DNA of 64,000 bases, taken from positions 1-64,000 of the forward strand of contig CACKGF010000003.1 in NCBI GenBank assembly GCA_902599625.1, in the 5' to 3' direction. Below are positions 7,147-37,006 of this stretch, one piece after another. The stretch comes from an uncultured Pelagibacteraceae bacterium. Lineage in GTDB: Bacteria; Pseudomonadota; Alphaproteobacteria; Pelagibacterales; Pelagibacteraceae. Each line of letters begins with the position of its first letter. Position 1 is the stretch's first letter. The notes below the pieces were generated by a model. It was not told where the DNA came from. It made no database searches and saw only the letters and a list, made by a program, of their open reading frames with translations. The position numbers and the translations under genes are program-made.

Positions 7147-7263
7147 TGCCTGGTGATTATTGCGAAGGTGTAATACCCGATCCCATTCCGAACTCGGTAG
7201 TCAAGCCCTTCTGCGCCGATGGTACTTTGTCTTAAGACATGGAAGAGTAGGACGTTGCCAGGC
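7147..7263 (+). rRNA. rrf: 5S ribosomal RNA
   Basis: About 117 nt. The 5' GCCTGG pairs with the 3' CCAGGC to close helix I, and the conserved core CCGATCCCATTCCGAACTCG is intact, followed by GCGCCGATGGTA and GGAAGAGTAGG. No 23S or 16S sequence lies next to it: upstream is fcl and downstream is rpmJ, only 9 bases away. In SAR11 genomes the 5S gene is, from memory, separated from 16S-23S by a hypervariable island, which fits this context. A promoter match lies immediately upstream and no terminator is visible downstream. Confidence 0.97.
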
Positions 7264-7272
7264 TAATAAATT

Positions 7273-7398
7273 ATGAAAATAAAAAGCTCCCTTAAATCAT
7301 TAAAAAAAAGAGATCTTAACTCAAAATTAGTTAAGAGAAGAGGAAGAGTTTACATAATCAATAAAAAAAACCCAAAATTTAAAGCAAGACAGAAGTAA
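7273..7398 (+). CDS. rpmJ: 50S ribosomal protein L36 (cysteine-free type)
   Basis: 41-residue gene too short for the ORF track: it begins [14 protein letters not shown] and ends KFKARQK. The [11 protein letters not shown] core and the C-terminal FKARQ are diagnostic of L36. The zinc-ribbon cysteines of canonical L36 are absent, as in the alternative L36 type common in Alphaproteobacteria. The ATG is 9 bases after the end of 5S rRNA; no Shine-Dalgarno sequence is present in that gap. Three bases separate its stop from the next small gene. Confidence 0.93.
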
Positions 7399-7401
7399 TT
7401 T

Positions 7402-7512
7402 ATGGATAATGAAAACCATAAAAAAACATGGGATAATTTCACGAAGTTCGTTCTTTGGGGGACAATTTCAGTCATTGTTATTTTAACACTTCTAGCTATT
7501 TTCTTACTATAA
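7402..7512 (+). CDS. aa3-type cytochrome c oxidase subunit IV (small membrane protein)
   Basis: 36-residue protein, not in the ORF track: MDNENHKKTWDNFTKFVLWG followed by one hydrophobic helix to the C terminus. The short polar N terminus with H-x3-TW-x2-F, then a single transmembrane segment, matches the tiny bacterial aa3 oxidase subunit IV family found in Alphaproteobacteria. In that group a gene of this type is often found just before pntAA, as here (5 bases before the next start). Its exact role in the oxidase is not known from sequence. Confidence 0.8.
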   Translation: MDNENHKKTWDNFTKFVLWGTISVIVILTLLAIFLL

Positions 7513-11009: not shown

Positions 11010-11086
<77 letters not shown>

Positions 11087-20021: not shown

Positions 20022-20564
20022 GTGAACAAATTTCAATTAAGAAAAAAGATATCTAAAATTCGATCAAAATTTTCCAGAAAAAAAATTACAGTAAATTCTG
20101 AGGCAATAATCAAATTGATTGAGCAGAAATCTCCCAACAGAAGGGTTGGCTTGTATTATCCGTTTGGTGATGAGTTATCTACTTTAGAATTAATGGATCG
20201 ATTGACTAAAAAAAATTTTTTAATTTCTCTACCTGTAATTAATAATAAATTTGAGATGTCTTTTTATAGCTGGAGTCGTAATGAGCCTTTAACAATAAAT
20301 AGATTTGGTATCTTAGAGCCTTTTAAGGGAAAAAAAATAACTCCTTCTACTTTAATAATTCCGATGTTAGCTTTTGACTCTAACTTAAATAGACTTGGCT
20401 ATGGAGGAGGTTTCTACGACAGATTTATACAAAAAATTGAGAAACAAAATAACTGTGTTAAAATCGGACTTGCTCTTTCTTGTCAAAAAATTAATAAAGT
20501 GCCAGTTGATAAATATGATAAAAAAATGGATTTCATAATTACTGAAAAAAGAATTTATAAATGA
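20022..20564 (+). CDS. fau: 5-formyltetrahydrofolate cyclo-ligase
   Basis: Converts 5-formyl-THF to 5,10-methenyl-THF with ATP. 180 residues; GTG start. Seen: MNKFQLRKKISKIR, VGLYYPFGDELSTLELMD, PVINNKFEMSFYSW, IIPMLAFDSNLNRLGYGGGF with the following YDRF, which is the family signature. zapA-fau order is conserved in many proteobacteria, where 6S RNA often lies between; here there is no room for it. Overlaps the next gene by 4 bases. Confidence 0.93.
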   Translation: MNKFQLRKKISKIRSKFSRKKITVNSEAIIKLIEQKSPNRRVGLYYPFGDELSTLELMDRLTKKNFLISLPVINNKFEMSFYSWSRNEPLTINRFGILEPFKGKKITPSTLIIPMLAFDSNLNRLGYGGGFYDRFIQKIEKQNNCVKIGLALSCQKINKVPVDKYDKKMDFIITEKRIYK

Positions 20565-21367
20565 AAATTTTATTTTTAGGCGACATTGTAGGACCGTCGG
20601 GTTGCATGGTTGTAAAAAAACACCTTAAAAAAATAGTTGAGAAAAATAAAATTAATTTCGTAATAGCAAATGGTGAAAACGCTGCTCATAACGGAGTAGG
20701 TATTACAAAAGATGTTTTAGAAAATCTAATTAAATTTGGAGTAAATGTACTTACAACTGGAAATCATGTTTGGGATCATAAAGAAACTCTAAAACTCGTT
20801 GAGGATGATAATAGAATTCTTAGACCATTTAATTTAATTGGAATATCGCCAGGAAAAGGATTTGAAATTTATCAAACATCAAAAAATTTTAAAATAGGTG
20901 TGCTAAATTTAATGGGAAATGTTTTCATGAGGAAAAGTGAAGATGTTTTCAAAACAGCTGAAAATTTTCAAAAAAAATACCAACTAAAAAAAGATTATGA
21001 CTTTTTAGTAGTCGACTTGCATTGCGAAACTACTTCAGAAAAAATGGCAATGGGACATTTGTTTGATAGTAAAGCAACTTTAGTTACTGGTACTCACACG
21101 CACATTCCAACAAATGACGCAAGAGTTTTAAAAGGCGGGACTGCGTATATCACAGACTCCGGAATGTGTGGTGACTACGACTCAGTAATTGGGATGAATA
21201 AAGAAAACTCGTTAAAAAGATTCTTTAAACAAGATTCTGAAAAACATTATCCATCTTTGGGGGATGGTTCTTTATCGGGTGTTATGGTAGATTGTGATGA
21301 AACTTCAGGACTAGCTAAAAATATTAATAGTATAATTGTTGGGGGTGTTTTAAATAATTCAAAATAA
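20561..21367 (+). CDS. TIGR00282/YmdB-family metallophosphoesterase
   Basis: 268-residue calcineurin-like phosphoesterase. Seen: ILFLGDIVGPSGCMVVKKHL, FVIANGENAAHNGVGIT, TTGNHVWDHKE, VDLHCETTSEKMAMGHLFD and VTGTHTHIPTNDARVL, supplying the Asp, Asn and His metal ligands in YmdB order. YmdB of Bacillus hydrolyses 2',3'-cyclic nucleotides; the substrate here is unproven. Lies 4 bases into the fau stop and one base before yebC. Confidence 0.92.
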   Translation: MKILFLGDIVGPSGCMVVKKHLKKIVEKNKINFVIANGENAAHNGVGITKDVLENLIKFGVNVLTTGNHVWDHKETLKLVEDDNRILRPFNLIGISPGKGFEIYQTSKNFKIGVLNLMGNVFMRKSEDVFKTAENFQKKYQLKKDYDFLVVDLHCETTSEKMAMGHLFDSKATLVTGTHTHIPTNDARVLKGGTAYITDSGMCGDYDSVIGMNKENSLKRFFKQDSEKHYPSLGDGSLSGVMVDCDETSGLAKNINSIIVGGVLNNSK

Positions 21368-21368
21368 T

Positions 21369-22091
21369 ATGGCAGGACATTCTCATTGGGCTGGTATAAA
21401 ACATAAAAAAGGTAGAGCAGATAAAGAAAGGTCAAAGATATTCTCGAAACTTTCTAGAGAGATTACTGTAGCTGCTAAACTTGGAGACAAAGATCCTTTA
21501 ATGAACCCGAGACTTAGATCTGCTATTCAAGCAGCAAGATCTTCAAACATGCCAAAAGATAACATCGAGAGAGCCATTGATAAATCGAAGTCATTAAATC
21601 AATCAAATTTTGAAAAGATAAGATACGAAGGTTTTGGTAAAGATAAAGTTGCTATAATTGTTGAAGCACTTACAGATAACAAAAATAGAACTGCCTCAAA
21701 ATTAAGAACAATTTTTCAAAAAAATGGTGGTAATTTGGGTACCCAAGGTTCTGCAGCTCACAATTTTAAACAAATTGGCGTAATTAGAATAGACATAAAT
21801 GAAATTAGAGACGATAAAATTTTTGAACTAGCAATTGATGCTGGTGCAGATGAATGCTTTTCCTTGAAAAATTTTCATGAGATACATTGTGGTTTTGAAG
21901 ATATTTATTCTATAAAAAAAAAAATTGAGTCTCATGTTGAAAATTTTATATCTACAAATATTGAATGGATTCCACTAAACAAGGTTTACAGCGAAGGTGA
22001 GAATAAAGAGGACATAAAAAAACTTATAGAATTATTAGATGATGACGATGATGTTCAAAGGGTTTACTCTAATTTTGGGGAAGAAGATTAA
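21369..22091 (+). CDS. yebC: YebC/PmpR (TACO1) family protein
   Basis: 240 residues, three-domain YebC fold. Seen: MAGHSHWAGIKHKKGRADKE, RSKIFSKLSREITVAAK, ARSSNMPKDNIERAIDK, and GNLGTQGSAAHNF. Family members have been described both as transcriptional regulators and, more recently, as translation factors that help ribosomes at certain motifs. In many bacteria yebC precedes ruvCAB; here only a ruvC-like gene follows. Confidence 0.96.
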   Translation: MAGHSHWAGIKHKKGRADKERSKIFSKLSREITVAAKLGDKDPLMNPRLRSAIQAARSSNMPKDNIERAIDKSKSLNQSNFEKIRYEGFGKDKVAIIVEALTDNKNRTASKLRTIFQKNGGNLGTQGSAAHNFKQIGVIRIDINEIRDDKIFELAIDAGADECFSLKNFHEIHCGFEDIYSIKKKIESHVENFISTNIEWIPLNKVYSEGENKEDIKKLIELLDDDDDVQRVYSNFGEED

Positions 22092-22094
22092 GCA

Positions 22095-22583
22095 ATGTTA
22101 ATAATTGGAATAGATCCTGGAATTAATGGTGCAATATGCTTATTTAAAGATGGAAAGATAGTGGATGTATTTGAAATGCCAAAAATGGCTGTAGGAAAAA
22201 AAAATAAATCCCAAGTTAATGCTTCTCAAATATTTAACGAAATTCAAAAAGCTGTAGAAGGAGAAGATAAGACGAAAGTAATAGCTGTGATCGAACAAGT
22301 TTCTGCAATGCCAGGACAAGGAGTTACTAGCATGTTTAATTTTGGACAGTCTTTTGGAGTGTTGAAAGGAATTTTTTCTGCAATGCAAATTCCAATGGAC
22401 TTTGTTTCGCCAGTTAAATGGAAAAAATTCTTTAATTTGATAAATACAAACAAAGACGCTAGCAGGACAAAAGCTATTGAAATTTATCCATACTTTTCGT
22501 CAAAATTGTCAAAAAAAAAAGATGCTAATAAAGCGGATGCGATACTAATTTCTAGTTTTTATTACCAAAACGCTAAATATTAG
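22095..22583 (+). CDS. ruvC: RuvC-like Holliday junction resolvase, phage-type
   Basis: 162-residue RNase H-fold nuclease. Acidic candidates: Asp7 in MLIIGIDPGINGAI, Glu67 in AVIEQVSAMPGQG and Asp148 in NKADAILIS. Canonical RuvC has two Asp three apart here; this protein has Asn145 and Asp148, plus Asp143. The FVSPVKWKKFF, KDASRTKAIEIYP and KKDANKADAILIS motifs match the RuvC-like resolvases of phages better than bacterial RuvC as I know them. It sits where ruvC is expected after yebC, but ruvA, ruvB and ybgC do not follow; tolQ does. It probably cuts recombination junctions; activity needs proof. Confidence 0.8.
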   Translation: MLIIGIDPGINGAICLFKDGKIVDVFEMPKMAVGKKNKSQVNASQIFNEIQKAVEGEDKTKVIAVIEQVSAMPGQGVTSMFNFGQSFGVLKGIFSAMQIPMDFVSPVKWKKFFNLINTNKDASRTKAIEIYPYFSSKLSKKKDANKADAILISSFYYQNAKY

Positions 22584-22639
22584 ATTTATTTGATCTTTAA
22601 GGTCAAATTGATGACACATTTTAGTGTGAAAGATTTTTC

Positions 22640-23314
22640 ATGGAAGCTGATATAGCATCACAATCTGTTGGACTAGGAAGTTCTGTAGACTTCTCTTTAT
22701 GGAGCTTATTTCTTAGAGCAGACATAATTGTAAAATCAGTTATTGTTTTATTAATCGCAGCATCAATTTACACTTGGGCGATAATTATAGAAAAATTTAA
22801 ATTATTTAAGAAAATAAATTTATCAACCCAAGAGTTTGAAGAAAAATTTTGGAAATCAAGATCTGCCGAAAGTTTCTATAATAATTTACCAGCAAATATT
22901 GATGACCCAATGTCAAATGTTTTTAAAAAGACCATGCAAGTTGTTCTTAAATCAAGATCTAGAAGTAATTTAAGTGAAAAGCTTTCAGGTTTATTAGAGT
23001 CTAATATAGAAAATGAAATTAACAAGCTTGAAAAAAATTATTCATTTTTAGCCACTGTAGGTTCAACGGCACCGTTTATTGGTTTGTTTGGAACAGTTTG
23101 GGGAATTATGAATTCATTCCAATCAATTGCGGTTTCAAGAAACACAAGTTTAGCTATTGTCGCGCCAGGTATTGCAGAAGCACTATTTGCAACAGCTCTC
23201 GGTCTCTTAGCAGCTATACCTGCGGTTGTAGCTTATAACAAATTTAATAACGACTCAAAAAAATATTCTCAAAGATTAGAAAATTTTGCCAAAAGATTCA
23301 TCTCTACTATTTAA
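22640..23314 (+). CDS. tolQ: Tol-Pal system protein TolQ
   Basis: Inner-membrane proton-channel subunit of the Tol-Pal machine, 224 residues with three transmembrane segments (about 30-50, 130-150, 165-190). Seen: ATVGSTAPFIGLFGTVWGIM and APGIAEALFATALGLLAAIP, the conserved TM2/TM3 stretches of ExbB/TolQ. The first gene of tolQRAB-pal-cpoB here; the thioesterase gene ybgC that often precedes it is absent. Confidence 0.96.
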   Translation: MEADIASQSVGLGSSVDFSLWSLFLRADIIVKSVIVLLIAASIYTWAIIIEKFKLFKKINLSTQEFEEKFWKSRSAESFYNNLPANIDDPMSNVFKKTMQVVLKSRSRSNLSEKLSGLLESNIENEINKLEKNYSFLATVGSTAPFIGLFGTVWGIMNSFQSIAVSRNTSLAIVAPGIAEALFATALGLLAAIPAVVAYNKFNNDSKKYSQRLENFAKRFISTI

Positions 23315-23317
23315 CTA

Positions 23318-23734
23318 ATGGCTTTTAATTTAAAAAACAAATCTAAAGATCCAATAAGTGAAATAAATGTAACACCATTTGTTGATGTTATGTTGGTGCT
23401 TTTAATTGTTTTTATGGTAACAGCACCATTATTAACTGTTGGTGTTCAAGTAGATCTACCAGAAAGTTCAGCTGACTCTCTTCCTGAAGAACAAGAGCCA
23501 CTAACTTTAAGTATAAATTCAAAAGGAGAGATTTTTATTCAAGAGTCAAAAGTTGAATTCGATAATGTAATTGCCAAAATATTGGCCGTTTCGAAAAATA
23601 GGACAGATACAAGAATATATGTAAGAGGCGACAAGACAATCAATTATGGAAGAGTTCTAGAAGTTATGGGGATGCTTTCTGGTTCAGGATTTACAAAAGT
23701 AGCACTTATTTCAGAACCTTATAAAGAGAGGTGA
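23318..23734 (+). CDS. tolR: Tol-Pal system protein TolR
   Basis: 138 residues, one N-terminal transmembrane helix and a periplasmic domain. Seen: ISEINVTPFVDVMLVLLIVF with the membrane Asp that takes part in proton transfer in ExbD/TolR. Only 3 bases after tolQ. Works with TolQ to energise TolA. Confidence 0.96.
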   Translation: MAFNLKNKSKDPISEINVTPFVDVMLVLLIVFMVTAPLLTVGVQVDLPESSADSLPEEQEPLTLSINSKGEIFIQESKVEFDNVIAKILAVSKNRTDTRIYVRGDKTINYGRVLEVMGMLSGSGFTKVALISEPYKER

Positions 23735-23740
23735 TCGATA

Positions 23741-24553
23741 GTGGCTAATAATATTATTATATCATCTTTACTTCATTTATTTCTTATAATTATAACAGCA
23801 TTGAGCCTTCCTTTTTTAGCAAAAAAACCAATAGATCTTCCGCCGATTATTTCAATAGAACTTATTCAAATTACTGATAAAACATCTATACCTTATGCTC
23901 CTAAAGCGAAAAAGATTATTGAAGAAATAAAGAAGAAAGAAAAAGAAAAACTTGTTTCTGAGCAAGCACCCCCCAAAAAAGTTAAAAAAGAAAAACCAGA
24001 TGCAATACCACTACCGGATCAACAAAAAAATATTGTAAAAAAACCAGAAGAGGATAAACAAAACCCAGAAAAAATTGATGATGAAATTAAACAAGTCTCA
24101 GAATTTGAAAAAAAAGAATTATTTGATCCAAACAATATTGCTGCGTTAATTGATAAATCAAAAGAAGAAACTGCAGAGATGATTAAAAGTGATAACAAGA
24201 TAACTCAATCACAGAGAAAAAGTGTTATTTCTTCTGGATTGACCTTAAATGAGGAAGATGCTCTTAAAGCCCAAATTTTTGGATGCTGGAGTATCCCATT
24301 GGGATTACCTTACAATGAAGATCTTCTTGTAAGAATTAAACTTAATTTAAAACCTGATGGTACAATTATTAACTCTGAAATACTTGACCATGCCAGAATG
24401 AACAAACCAGGACAAGGATTCTATAAAGTTTTAGCAGAAAGTGCTTTAAGGGCAATTAGATTGTGTCAACCCTTGAGAGTTCCAACAACTGGTTATGAGA
24501 GATGGAAAGAAATACAACTAAATTTTGATGCCAGGGAGATGCTTCAAGGATGA
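23741..24553 (+). CDS. tolA: TolA-like protein
   Basis: 270 residues; GTG start. An N-terminal membrane anchor (about residues 4-24), then a long Lys/Glu/Pro-rich linker ([17 protein letters not shown]) spanning the periplasm, and a C-terminal TonB/TolA-like domain starting near residue 165 ([32 protein letters not shown]). Identity rests on architecture and its position between tolR and tolB; sequence is poorly conserved in this family. Overlaps tolB by 4 bases. Confidence 0.88.
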
Positions 24554-25899
24554 GAAAATTTATTTTTTTAATATATGTTTCCTTATTTATTTTTAATTGT
24601 GGAAAAGCATGGTCTCTTATTGAAGTAGATATAACCAGAGGTAATCTAAATCCTTTACCCCTAGCAGTATCGCCATTATCTGTTGATCAAAATTCTAAAG
24701 AAAAATTTAAAGACACATTAAAACTTGAGGACATTGGTGCAGAAATATCAAAAGTTGTTGAGAATAATTTAAGACAATCAGGTTTATTCAATCCGTTGGA
24801 TCCAAAGGCTTTTCTACAAAAACCGGATATTGCTCATGTAAAACCAAGATTTGAGGATTGGGCGTTAATTAAAGCTCAAGCTTTAATAACTGGAGAAGTA
24901 AAGATAGTTGATGAAAAGCTTAGAGTTGAGTTTAGGTTATGGGATGTATTAGCCGGTAAAGAAATTATGGCGTTAGCATTCACCACTGTTTCAGAAAATT
25001 GGAGAAGAGTTGGACATATAATTACTGATAAAGTTTACCAAAGGTTGACAGGTGAAAAAGGTTATTTTGATACTAGAATTATTTATGTTGCTGAAGAAGG
25101 ACTTAAAACAAGTCGTATCAAGAAATTAGCAATTATGGATCAAGATGGATTCAACACGAAGTACTTAACTCTAGGAAATGAATTAGTTTTAACACCAAGA
25201 TTTAATCCAACAAATCAAATGGTCACTTATTTATCTTATTTTAAAAATCTACCTAGAGTGTATTTACTAGATATTGAAACAGGTATTCAGGAAGTTGTTG
25301 GAGACTTTCCTGGTATGACTTTTGCTCCACGTTTCTCTCCCGACGGAAAAAAAATTATTATGAGTTTTGCTAAAGATGGAAACTCAGATATTTATACTAT
25401 GGACCTTGAAAGTAGAGAGGTTGAAAAAATCACAAACCACCCATCAATTGATACATCACCATCATATTCTCCGGATGGTAAATATATTTGCTTCAATTCA
25501 GATAGAAGTGGCTATCAGCAAATTTATGTAATGAGAAGTGATGGTTCAAAAGTTAAAAGGATTTCTTTCGGAAATGGTCTTTACGGAACACCTGTATGGT
25601 CTCCTAGAGGCGATTTAATAGCTTTCACAAAACTTCATAAAGGAAAGTTTTATATTGGTGTAATGAGAACAGATGGAACTGGCGAAAGATTGCTTACAGA
25701 AAACTATTATCAAGAGGCTCCTTCATGGTCTCCTAATGGGAGGGTTTTAATTTTTTATAGAGAGACAAAATCGGACTCTGCAGGCAAGGGTTTTTCAGCC
25801 AAACTTTGGTCTATCGATCTCACAGGATATAATGAAAGAATGGTCAAAACTGAGACTGATGCTTCAGACCCATCTTGGTCGTCATTATTGACTGATTAA
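24550..25899 (+). CDS. tolB: Tol-Pal system beta-propeller protein TolB
   Basis: Periplasmic protein of 449 residues with an N-terminal signal peptide (about 1-22), an alpha/beta domain and a six-bladed propeller. Propeller repeats are visible as [41 protein letters not shown] and [13 protein letters not shown]. It binds Pal and relays TolA. Stop codon is followed by a 100-base gap holding the pal leader. Confidence 0.96.
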
Positions 25900-25999
25900 T
25901 TATGGTATTTTTAAAAAAAATTAATAATTCCTTGATTTTTAAGCTTGAAAGATCTAATTAGTTGTGAAAAAGTATAAAATTAACTTTTAAGGAGCAGTA

Positions 26000-26473
26000 A
26001 TGAGTTTAAACAAAATTTTTAGAAATACTTTGCTAGTATTTTTTGCAAGTATTCTATTATCTGCATGTGCCGTAAAAACTACAGGTAAAATGCAAGGTGA
26101 CGTATATACTGGAAAAGACACAGTTGAGTATTTAGCATCAGGTGTGCCAGACAGAGTTTTCTTCGCAACTAATGAAACAGTTTTAACTACTGCTTCAAGA
26201 GAAACATTAAGAAAACAAGCATCATGGTTAAGAAAAAATTCTAAAATAAATGTAGTTCTTGAAGGTCACGCCGACGAAAGAGGTACGAGAGAATATAACT
26301 TAGCCTTAGGTGAGAGAAGAGCTAATGCAGCTAAAGATTATTTAATGACTTATGGAATATCTGGAAACAGAATTTCAGTGATAAGTTATGGAAAAGAAAG
26401 ACCAGTAGACTCTGGTTCAAATCCTTTAGCTTGGTCAAAAAACAGAAGATCAGTAACAGTAAAAGCTAACTAA
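26000..26473 (+). CDS. pal: Peptidoglycan-associated lipoprotein Pal
   Basis: 157 residues. Lipoprotein signal with lipobox LLSAC, lipidated Cys23, then an OmpA-C peptidoglycan-binding domain: VFFATNETVLTTASRETLRK and GHADERGTREYNLALGERRA. A clear AAGGAG ribosome binding site precedes the ATG, unusually strong for this window, and a terminator follows, in keeping with high expression. Anchors the outer membrane to peptidoglycan. Confidence 0.97.
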   Translation: MSLNKIFRNTLLVFFASILLSACAVKTTGKMQGDVYTGKDTVEYLASGVPDRVFFATNETVLTTASRETLRKQASWLRKNSKINVVLEGHADERGTREYNLALGERRANAAKDYLMTYGISGNRISVISYGKERPVDSGSNPLAWSKNRRSVTVKAN

Positions 26474-26487
26474 TAATTTATAAATTC

Positions 26488-26525
26488 AGACCCCAATAAC
26501 ATAAGTTGTTGGGGTCTTTTTTTTG
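26488..26525 (+). terminator. Rho-independent terminator after pal
   Basis: AGACCCCAATAAC pairs with GTTGTTGGGGTCT (13 bp with one G-U) around a 4-base loop, followed by a run of T. One of only two strong terminators seen in the window. Confidence 0.9.
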
Positions 26526-26551
26526 CCATCATTATAGATAGAAATCAACTA

Positions 26552-27511
26552 ATGAAATTTTTAGGTTATATATATAAAAGTACATTAGTTTTAATAATAT
26601 TTATTTTTTCAACTAATTTTTTTGTCAAGGCAGAAGAAACAAAAACTTTAGAAGTAATTAAAACATTACAAAAAGATTTAAAAACTTTAGAAAAAGCTGT
26701 TTATTCACAATCTTCAGATATAATTACATCTAACAAAACAAAATTAAGTTCAAATGATGAAGATGTGCTTACAAGACATTTATTAAAATTGTCTGAGATA
26801 GAAAAACAATTTCAAGATTTGACAAATAAATTTGAAGAAATAAATTTTAAAATCGATAAATTATCAAGTAGATTATCAAAAGTTCAAGCAGATAATCAAT
26901 TGAGGTTCCAAAATTTAGAAGGCGAGGACATTGATAAAAAAGTTACATCTAAGAAAAAAGTTCTACCTGGCTCTTCTCAACCACAAGATCTTGGCGCAGT
27001 ATCCTACAAGTCATCAGAAACAAATGAATTAATACAACAAACTCAATCAATAGATACAACTGGTACAGTCATAACAGAAAAATTTGTGTCAGAAGAAAAA
27101 ATCTTACCTAATGATAAACCTGACAAACAATACGAGTTTGCCACTAGTTTTTTAAAACAAGGAGACTATACGACTGCAGAAAGAGCGCTTAGAGAATTTG
27201 TAATGACAAATCCTGAACATAAAATGGCAGGTAGCGCACAATATTGGTACGCAGAAACATTTAGAATTAGACAACTTTATACAGATGCTGCTTCTGCTTA
27301 CTTAGAAGGTTATCAAAAATATCCTAAAAGTGAAAAAGCAGCTATAAATTTACTTAAGCTTGGAGTATCATTAGTGCAAATTGGAGAAAAAGATCAAGGG
27401 TGTTTAATGATTACAGGAGTTAAAAAAGAATATCCTGATGCAAAACAATCAGTTCTTCAAAAAGCAAAATATGAAGAAAAAAAGTTCGAGTGTAAAAAGA
27501 AAAAATCTTAA
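26552..27511 (+). CDS. cpoB: Tol-Pal accessory protein CpoB (YbgF)
   Basis: 319 residues: signal peptide (about 1-27), a long coiled coil with heptads (ETKTLEVIKTLQKDLKTL; FEEINFKIDKLSSRLSKV), a Ser/Thr/Gln-rich linker, and a C-terminal TPR domain (QYEFATSFLKQGDYTTAERA, SAQYWYAETFRIRQL, AINLLKLGVSLVQIGEKDQG). This is the CpoB/YbgF architecture that links Tol to cell-wall synthesis in E. coli. Follows the pal terminator, so it may have its own weak promoter or depend on read-through. Confidence 0.92.
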   Translation: MKFLGYIYKSTLVLIIFIFSTNFFVKAEETKTLEVIKTLQKDLKTLEKAVYSQSSDIITSNKTKLSSNDEDVLTRHLLKLSEIEKQFQDLTNKFEEINFKIDKLSSRLSKVQADNQLRFQNLEGEDIDKKVTSKKKVLPGSSQPQDLGAVSYKSSETNELIQQTQSIDTTGTVITEKFVSEEKILPNDKPDKQYEFATSFLKQGDYTTAERALREFVMTNPEHKMAGSAQYWYAETFRIRQLYTDAASAYLEGYQKYPKSEKAAINLLKLGVSLVQIGEKDQGCLMITGVKKEYPDAKQSVLQKAKYEEKKFECKKKKS

Positions 27512-36929: not shown

Positions 36930-37006
36930 GCGCTTGTAGCTCAACTGGATAGAGCGCCTGACTTCGGATCAGGAGGTTCTGGGTTCGACTCCTAGCAGGC
37001 GCACCA
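36930..37006 (+). tRNA. tRNA-Arg (TCG)
   Basis: 77 nt cloverleaf with encoded CCA. Acceptor GCGCTTG pairs with CAGGCGC, D-arm AGCTCAACTGGATAGAGC, anticodon loop CTTCGGA giving TCG, T-arm GGTTCGACTCC. Its 3' end is 2 bases from the stop codon of the convergent ABC permease gene. Confidence 0.96.

Follow-up and report, generated by a model that had tools for sequence, protein, structure and literature searches.

RuvAB has been reported to accompany RecA almost everywhere (PMC1193525). In Firmicutes, RuvC is replaced by an unrelated resolvase, RecU, but RuvAB is kept (PMC1193525). A lone phage resolvase can do the job of RuvABC in the laboratory: the RuvC of phage bIL67 alone restores the UV survival of E. 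coli ΔruvABC (0.60, versus 0.0016 with the vector) (PMC3864405), and RusA acts in both ΔruvAB and ΔruvC E. coli (PMC2716532). Plants are without RuvAB; their chloroplasts use the resolvase MOC1, and RecG and RadA orthologs are present (PMC6981420). In Wolbachia, ruvA decays and recG is conserved, and redundancy between RecG and RuvAB has been argued (PMC4224334). SAR11 are among the most abundant bacteria of the ocean. The recombination-gene section of a 2025 paper, in which SAR11 are reported to recombine promiscuously and to be without RecBCD, RecF and MutSL, leaves RuvABC unmentioned (PMC12374537). No paper describing a replacement of ruvCAB in SAR11 was found in a literature search covering mostly titles and abstracts, and there may be an earlier mention.

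The DNA considered here (the window) is a stretch of 64,000 nucleotides from contig 3 of an uncultured Pelagibacteraceae assembly (1.08 Mb, 13 contigs, 93% complete). Comparison of its yebC-tolQ interval with other genomes makes it very probable that, in the ancestral Pelagibacteraceae, the entire ruvC-ruvA-ruvB cassette was replaced in situ by a stand-alone, dimeric, metal-dependent RNase H-fold resolvase of the phage/MOC1 type. As with RecU, RuvC has given way to another resolvase, but here the motor is lost as well and the replacement lies in the old ruvCAB slot; unlike the laboratory situation of RusA or bIL67 RuvC in E. coli ruv mutants, this is a chromosomal replacement fixed throughout a family.

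The ruvCAB slot and the loss of the motor

The canonical gene order, reconstructed from 13 ruvB-positive alphaproteobacteria, is fthcl-ymdB-yebC-ruvC-ruvA-ruvB-(ybgC)-tolQRAB-pal-ybgF-tilS, with occasional members missing; these 13 are the genomes for which the stretch retrieved spans yebC to tolQ, the neighbours being partly out of range, or the order different, elsewhere. The arrangement remarked on in an earlier note on this DNA, a single RuvC-like gene followed by tolQ where ruvC-ruvA-ruvB would be expected, is therefore a real departure. In the window (Table 1), the resolvase gene starts 3 bases past the stop codon of yebC; about 55 bases separate its end from tolQ, and this gap contains a short inverted repeat, ATTTGA...TCAAAT (22584-22639). 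In SAR11 loci, the start of this gene often abuts or overlaps the yebC stop. The order tolR-tolA-tolB-pal-ybgF is identical in canonical and replaced lineages. Elsewhere in the window, there is an Rfam pntA sRNA at 7398-7459 (62.4 bits), downstream of a 5S rRNA (7149-7263), and there are tRNAs at 36930-37003 (+) and 11013-11086 (-).

Table 1. Coordinates in the window of the resolvase gene, its predicted functional residues and its neighbours
Feature	Position	Strand	Evidence or remark
5-formyltetrahydrofolate cyclo-ligase	20022..20564	+	Pfam PF01812; conserved upstream neighbour, order kept
ymdB-like metallophosphoesterase	20561..21367	+	Pfam PF13277; conserved upstream neighbour, order kept
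yebC, upstream border of ruvCAB slot	21369..22091	+	Pfam PF01709/PF20772
phrog_1770/MOC1-type Holliday-junction resolvase gene (predicted)	22095..22583	+	162 aa; PHROG, PDB and AF2/Foldseek matches, dN/dS
Predicted catalytic Asp7 codon (MOC1 D115/D116)	22113..22115	+	Invariant in 16 SAR11 rows and MOC1; 49/50 phage rows
Predicted catalytic Glu67 codon (MOC1 E174/E175)	22293..22295	+	Invariant in all rows
Base-recognition loop Met72-Pro-Gly-Gln75	22308..22319	+	Replaces MOC1 Y180/F179 (Met72) and D183/D182 (Gln75)
Lys120 codon (MOC1 K229)	22452..22454	+	16/16 SAR11, 49/50 phage rows; role of K229: PMC11183143
C-terminal acidic motif Asp143-Ala-Asn145-Lys-Ala-Asp148	22521..22538	+	Asp148 = MOC1 E257
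tolQ, downstream border of slot; ybgC lost here	22640..23314	+	Pfam PF01618
tolR, tolA, tolB, pal, ybgF block	23318..27511	+	ORFs; names by position and homology

The replacement is a trait of the whole family, and the nucleases with which the sister family and other lineages have refilled the slot are different ones. The gene occurs in six genera of the Pelagibacteraceae, and the 162-aa protein of the window has exact copies in uncultured Pelagibacteraceae single-cell genomes, AG-903-K07 among them, which makes the source cell a SAR11 bacterium. In all 92 Pelagibacteraceae loci, the resolvase gene adjoins yebC and/or tolQ, and it is still followed by ybgC in four of them (L070, L071, L072 and L076, from genera g2, g3 and g4), so it fills the exact ruvCAB position. 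The loci read from genera g1, g5 and g6 lack ybgC. Compared pairwise with relatives, the gene has dN/dS values of 0.07-0.14, within the range for yebC and tolQ, which indicates strong purifying selection, and these values together with the 92 syntenic loci exclude a chance filling of the slot. Apparent stop codons in the resolvase gene of one genome (G136, locus L078) look like sequencing or assembly errors, the adjacent tolQ and tolR being interrupted too.

The earlier note had reported ruvA and ruvB to be missing from the locus, and this extends to the entire source assembly: both were absent from HMM searches, and tblastn of the whole assembly gave nothing for RuvA or RuvC and only weak AAA+ cross-matches for RuvB, so intact copies do not lie elsewhere in this genome. 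RecA is present (66% identity to the E. coli protein by tblastn). RuvB (TIGR00635) scored above the cut-off in none of 197 Pelagibacterales genomes, of which 149 are at least 90% complete, but in 342 of 385 genomes of the class; RuvA and RuvC were each found in none of the 19 Pelagibacterales tested. More distant SAR11 matches to ruvB (E 1e-5 to 5e-9) were discarded as partial AAA+ cross-matches, far under the cut-off and mostly in frames of 420-800 aa, the length of which is consistent with ClpX, Lon, FtsH or DnaX. It is scarcely conceivable that this loss is an artefact of assembly or detection. The source assembly is 93% complete, and the resolvase itself has no match in eight family genomes and only a contig-edge fragment in one, as incomplete sequences might give, but the source assembly was searched as a whole, the RuvB search was positive in 10/10 bacterial controls, and the genomes without RuvB include several single-contig assemblies 99-100% complete. 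A true absence of the resolvase from the eight genomes was itself rejected, since in the resolvase-negative genomes yebC too is missing or lies at the edge of a contig, so that the locus is unassembled.

RuvA and RuvB being absent, the SAR11 system is not a RuvABC resolvasome. RecG was found at full length in 19/19 Pelagibacterales; its scores (598-656 bits) lie under the equivalog cut-off of 659 bits, and it was identified by near-complete coverage of the model instead. RadA was found in none of 26 genomes (14 Pelagibacterales and 12 other ruvB-less genomes), with 10/10 bacterial controls positive; among the three junction translocases tested, RecG is thus the sole survivor. This universal retention of RecG fits the suggestion that branch migration must be done another way in these cells. 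Next to recG, an Mfd-like helicase (an open frame of about 790-804 aa) was seen in four genomes of the sister family, f2 (G002, G004, G006 and G018); no comparable match was seen in the Pelagibacteraceae, which may have lost mfd.

Family, predicted active site and probable origin of the resolvase

The resolvase protein has no Pfam match, and its score against the NCBIfam RuvC model (12.6 bits, E 0.09) does not reach the cut-off of 163 bits. Residues 1-159 match phrog_1770 (E 8.9e-37), a family named "Holliday junction resolvase" in PHROG, where names are annotations, so that family functions are known here from annotation rather than from assays. The only PDB matches to the single protein sequence are chloroplast MOC1 resolvases (3e-16), and a 61-row profile retrieved MOC1 at E 9.5e-34 and one RuvC at 7.7e-4. 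An AlphaFold2 monomer model (pLDDT 93.5, pTM 0.89) had MOC1 chains as all of its top 12 Foldseek matches (TM about 0.86, E 2.8e-12; 6kvo, TM 0.86), followed by bacterial and phage RuvC (TM 0.5-0.7). With a profile match over its full length and a predicted RNase H-like RuvC/MOC1 fold, the protein is, judged from sequence and model, of the phrog_1770/MOC1 type and not a bacterial RuvC (PRK00039, PF02075). Its best characterized relative is chloroplast MOC1 rather than bacterial RuvC, with which it shares the chromosomal slot and the RNase H fold but neither the clade nor a RuvA/RuvB partner. Holliday-junction resolvase function is predicted from the family and the fold.

Phage relatives are numerous. 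INPHARED contains 97 records (best about 42% identity), including epsilon15 (AAO06106.1), and IMG/VR at least 595 stretches, the best at 44-49%; no phage relative above about 50% identity was found in these two collections. The phage proteins are 40-49% identical to the SAR11 protein over the full length and share its loop and catalytic motifs, but the SAR11 gene is chromosomal, lies directly after yebC in the same direction, occurs in six genera and carries an Asn145/Lys146 signature. The phage-type motifs quoted in the earlier note are present, and invariant or nearly so.

The predicted active site was read from an alignment of 16 SAR11 rows, 50 phage proteins and MOC1, the roles of the MOC1 catalytic residues being taken from published work (PMC7078210; PMC11183143). 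The catalytic acidic residues and lysine of MOC1 (D115, E174, K229 and E257) correspond to D7, E67, K120 and D148, all invariant in SAR11, as are Asp143, Asn145 and Lys146. The proposal that the paired Asp of RuvC has become Asn145/Asp148 is right by RuvC spacing, in which Asn145 occupies the site of the first Asp, but D7, E67, K120 and D148, with the invariant Asp143 two residues upstream of Asn145, describe the catalytic set better. Asn145 is found in 16/16 SAR11 rows versus 1/50 phage rows, most phage relatives and MOC1 having Gly. Met72 and Gln75 are present in 16/16 SAR11 and 47-48 of 50 phage rows, whereas MOC1 has Y/F and D at these positions. MOC1 D117, an analog of which is absent from RuvC too, is Gly9 in the SAR11 protein, and MOC1 H253, a metal-C ligand, is not conserved. 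MOC1 (Zea/Nicotiana; PDB 6kvo, 6jrf, 8kfr) is thus the best match in sequence and fold, with aligned catalytic residues, and it also operates in a RuvAB-less compartment, but Gly9, Met72 and Gln75 replace D117 and the cytosine-reading Y/F...D loop, making the SAR11 protein MOC1-type and not a MOC1 ortholog. Its sequence preference is therefore predicted to be unlike the cytosine preference of MOC1, and catalysis may differ in detail, given the lack of D117 and H253.

In a tree of 79 proteins (phage resolvases, SAR11, RuvC and the protein of another family, f119), the SAR11 proteins form a clade (100/96) nested among phage resolvases. RuvC forms a clade of its own (100/100), set apart by a branch of 2.39 changes per column, so that the SAR11 protein does not group within alphaproteobacterial RuvC. 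The possibility that it is nonetheless the native alphaproteobacterial ruvC, which diverged rapidly once the loss of ruvAB lifted constraint and came to resemble phage and MOC1 proteins, seems very improbable. The gene does occupy the same chromosomal slot, and a clade uniting SAR11 and RuvC was not rejected (AU p = 0.25), but identity to phage proteins is 45-48% where almost every comparison with alphaproteobacterial RuvC gave roughly 14-26%, the Met72-Pro-Gly-Gln75 loop and a KDxSR motif are held in common with phages, and divergence cannot explain the unrelated PD-(D/E)XK fold found in the slot of f2. The most likely history is that, in the common ancestor of the Pelagibacteraceae, ruvCAB gave way to a phage resolvase. 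The suggestion that a phage-derived gene had replaced the native one, with loss of the motor, is supported to this extent; as the attachment of the RuvC outgroup is not firmly fixed by the tree, we infer the direction of transfer, from phage to SAR11, from the nesting, the synteny and the different enzyme in the sister family. With an unrelated or separately acquired gene at the syntenic slot and the originals absent, the case is one of in-situ non-orthologous gene displacement, likeness of function being taken from family annotation and fold.

Other refilled slots and a proposed motor-independent scheme

All seven genomes read from f2, sister to the Pelagibacteraceae within the order, have an unrelated nuclease of 123-127 aa in the slot (Pfam PDDEXK_15; phrog_244 resolvase; PD-(D/E)XK fold, with D50...E60-x-K62 invariant), 50% identical to a gene annotated as a Holliday junction resolvase in Roseobacter phage CRP-810. 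The slot was also surveyed in 34 non-SAR11 genomes of the class without a ruvB match at E 1e-40, in 29 of which the yebC locus was available. Families f25, f32 (probably the HIMB59 lineage) and f142 have, ahead of tolQ, a PD-(D/E)XK-like protein of 97-122 aa matching phrog_2002, "Holliday junction resolvase" (E 2e-6 to 2.5e-10). The 15 best PDB matches to a model of the f32 protein (pLDDT 82) are archaeal Hjc, all weak (E 5e-3 and up, TM about 0.4-0.5), and relatives of these phrog_2002-type fillings, 64-73% identical, lie on contigs classed as viral. Family f51 has a distant 168-aa phrog_244 protein (PDDEXK_15, 2.7e-22), directly followed by tilS; a scan of viral contigs gave a single relative of it (31%), and INPHARED phages give 45%. 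The f2 and f51 nucleases both match phrog_244 and are 29% identical over 118 aligned residues, with no direct link in phmmer. Family f119, represented by one genome (80% complete), has a second MOC1-type protein in the order yebC-X-ybgC-tolQ; it groups with marine phages (95/90), away from the SAR11 clade, and a single clade of SAR11 and f119 was rejected (p 1.8e-6), consistent with a separate acquisition.

All of the single-gene nuclease fillings found have a match to a PHROG family named Holliday junction resolvase. Full-length RecG is present in 13/13 non-SAR11 genomes (12 in which the replaced slot was seen and G464, a relative of f51 in which it was not), and every replaced genome tested has kept recG and lacks radA. 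In a concatenated tree of eight genes, in which Pelagibacteraceae and f2 are sisters (100/100), the slot label requires at least five changes. The grouping of the AT-rich replaced lineages has weak support (80/70) and there are strong differences in composition; refillings, about five in number, can therefore be counted with more certainty than losses of ruvAB. These data make it likely that a rule holds for streamlined marine Alphaproteobacteria: a motor-independent phage resolvase between yebC and tolQ renders RuvABC dispensable, with about five refillings by three nuclease types (phrog_1770 twice, phrog_244 twice and phrog_2002 once or more) and RecG always kept. Several unrelated nucleases in one slot would be natural experiments on what the motor is for.

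In the proposed scheme for SAR11, RecA would make the junctions and the resolvase, acting as a dimer, would cut them; junctions would be moved by RecG, the candidate by elimination among the three translocases tested, or by spontaneous migration, without a docked RuvAB motor. A nuclease evolved to work without a host motor would have made RuvAB dispensable, so that a streamlining genome could drop it, and in several other streamlined alphaproteobacterial lineages the slot would have been filled likewise by phage-type resolvases of other kinds. The rescue of E. coli ΔruvABC by a phage enzyme makes a lone resolvase plausible. Phage resolvases are often active on branched DNA of other kinds, forks and flaps included (PMC3864405), and domestication in SAR11 should therefore have raised junction selectivity. 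The same breadth of cleavage, together with the nucleoid segregation defect of MOC1 mutants (PMC7078210; PMC6981420), could instead suit a nuclease of branched DNA or replication forks serving debranching or chromosome segregation outside recombination, with junctions removed by RecG and topoisomerases. This role seems improbable given that the gene occupies the ruvCAB slot, that each unrelated filling elsewhere is also resolvase-like, and that SAR11 recombine very actively and so need junction resolution (PMC12374537). The recombination scheme would explain how such SAR11 cells could resolve junctions and predicts a different cleavage-site preference. It would make SAR11 a bacterial parallel to the chloroplast, which uses MOC1 and has no RuvAB, with the difference that plants keep both RadA and RecG, and SAR11 only RecG. 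If this scheme and the wider rule hold, some of the most abundant and most recombining cells on Earth complete recombination with no more than RecG and enzymes domesticated from viruses.

Some minor observations were made in the survey. Several other members of the ruvB-less set keep an ordinary ruvC, and the missing ruvB may therefore be an assembly gap. One 0.6-Mb genome (G344, locus L302, family f19) has a RuvC-like gene near yebC although no match to ruvB was found at E 1e-40; it may represent an intermediate or have a divergent ruvB. In f51 (L408, L409 and L415), the tolQRAB-pal-ybgF block is absent between the slot nuclease and tilS, which suggests that Tol-Pal has been lost or relocated. 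MOC1-type matches in G389, G440 and G505 (L259, L261 and L258) were rejected as slot replacements, having phage-like 3-kb neighbourhoods in genomes that keep ruvB. The weak class matches in G279, G399 and G467 are RuvC-like proteins, with ruvA and ruvB directly beside them in G399 and G467.
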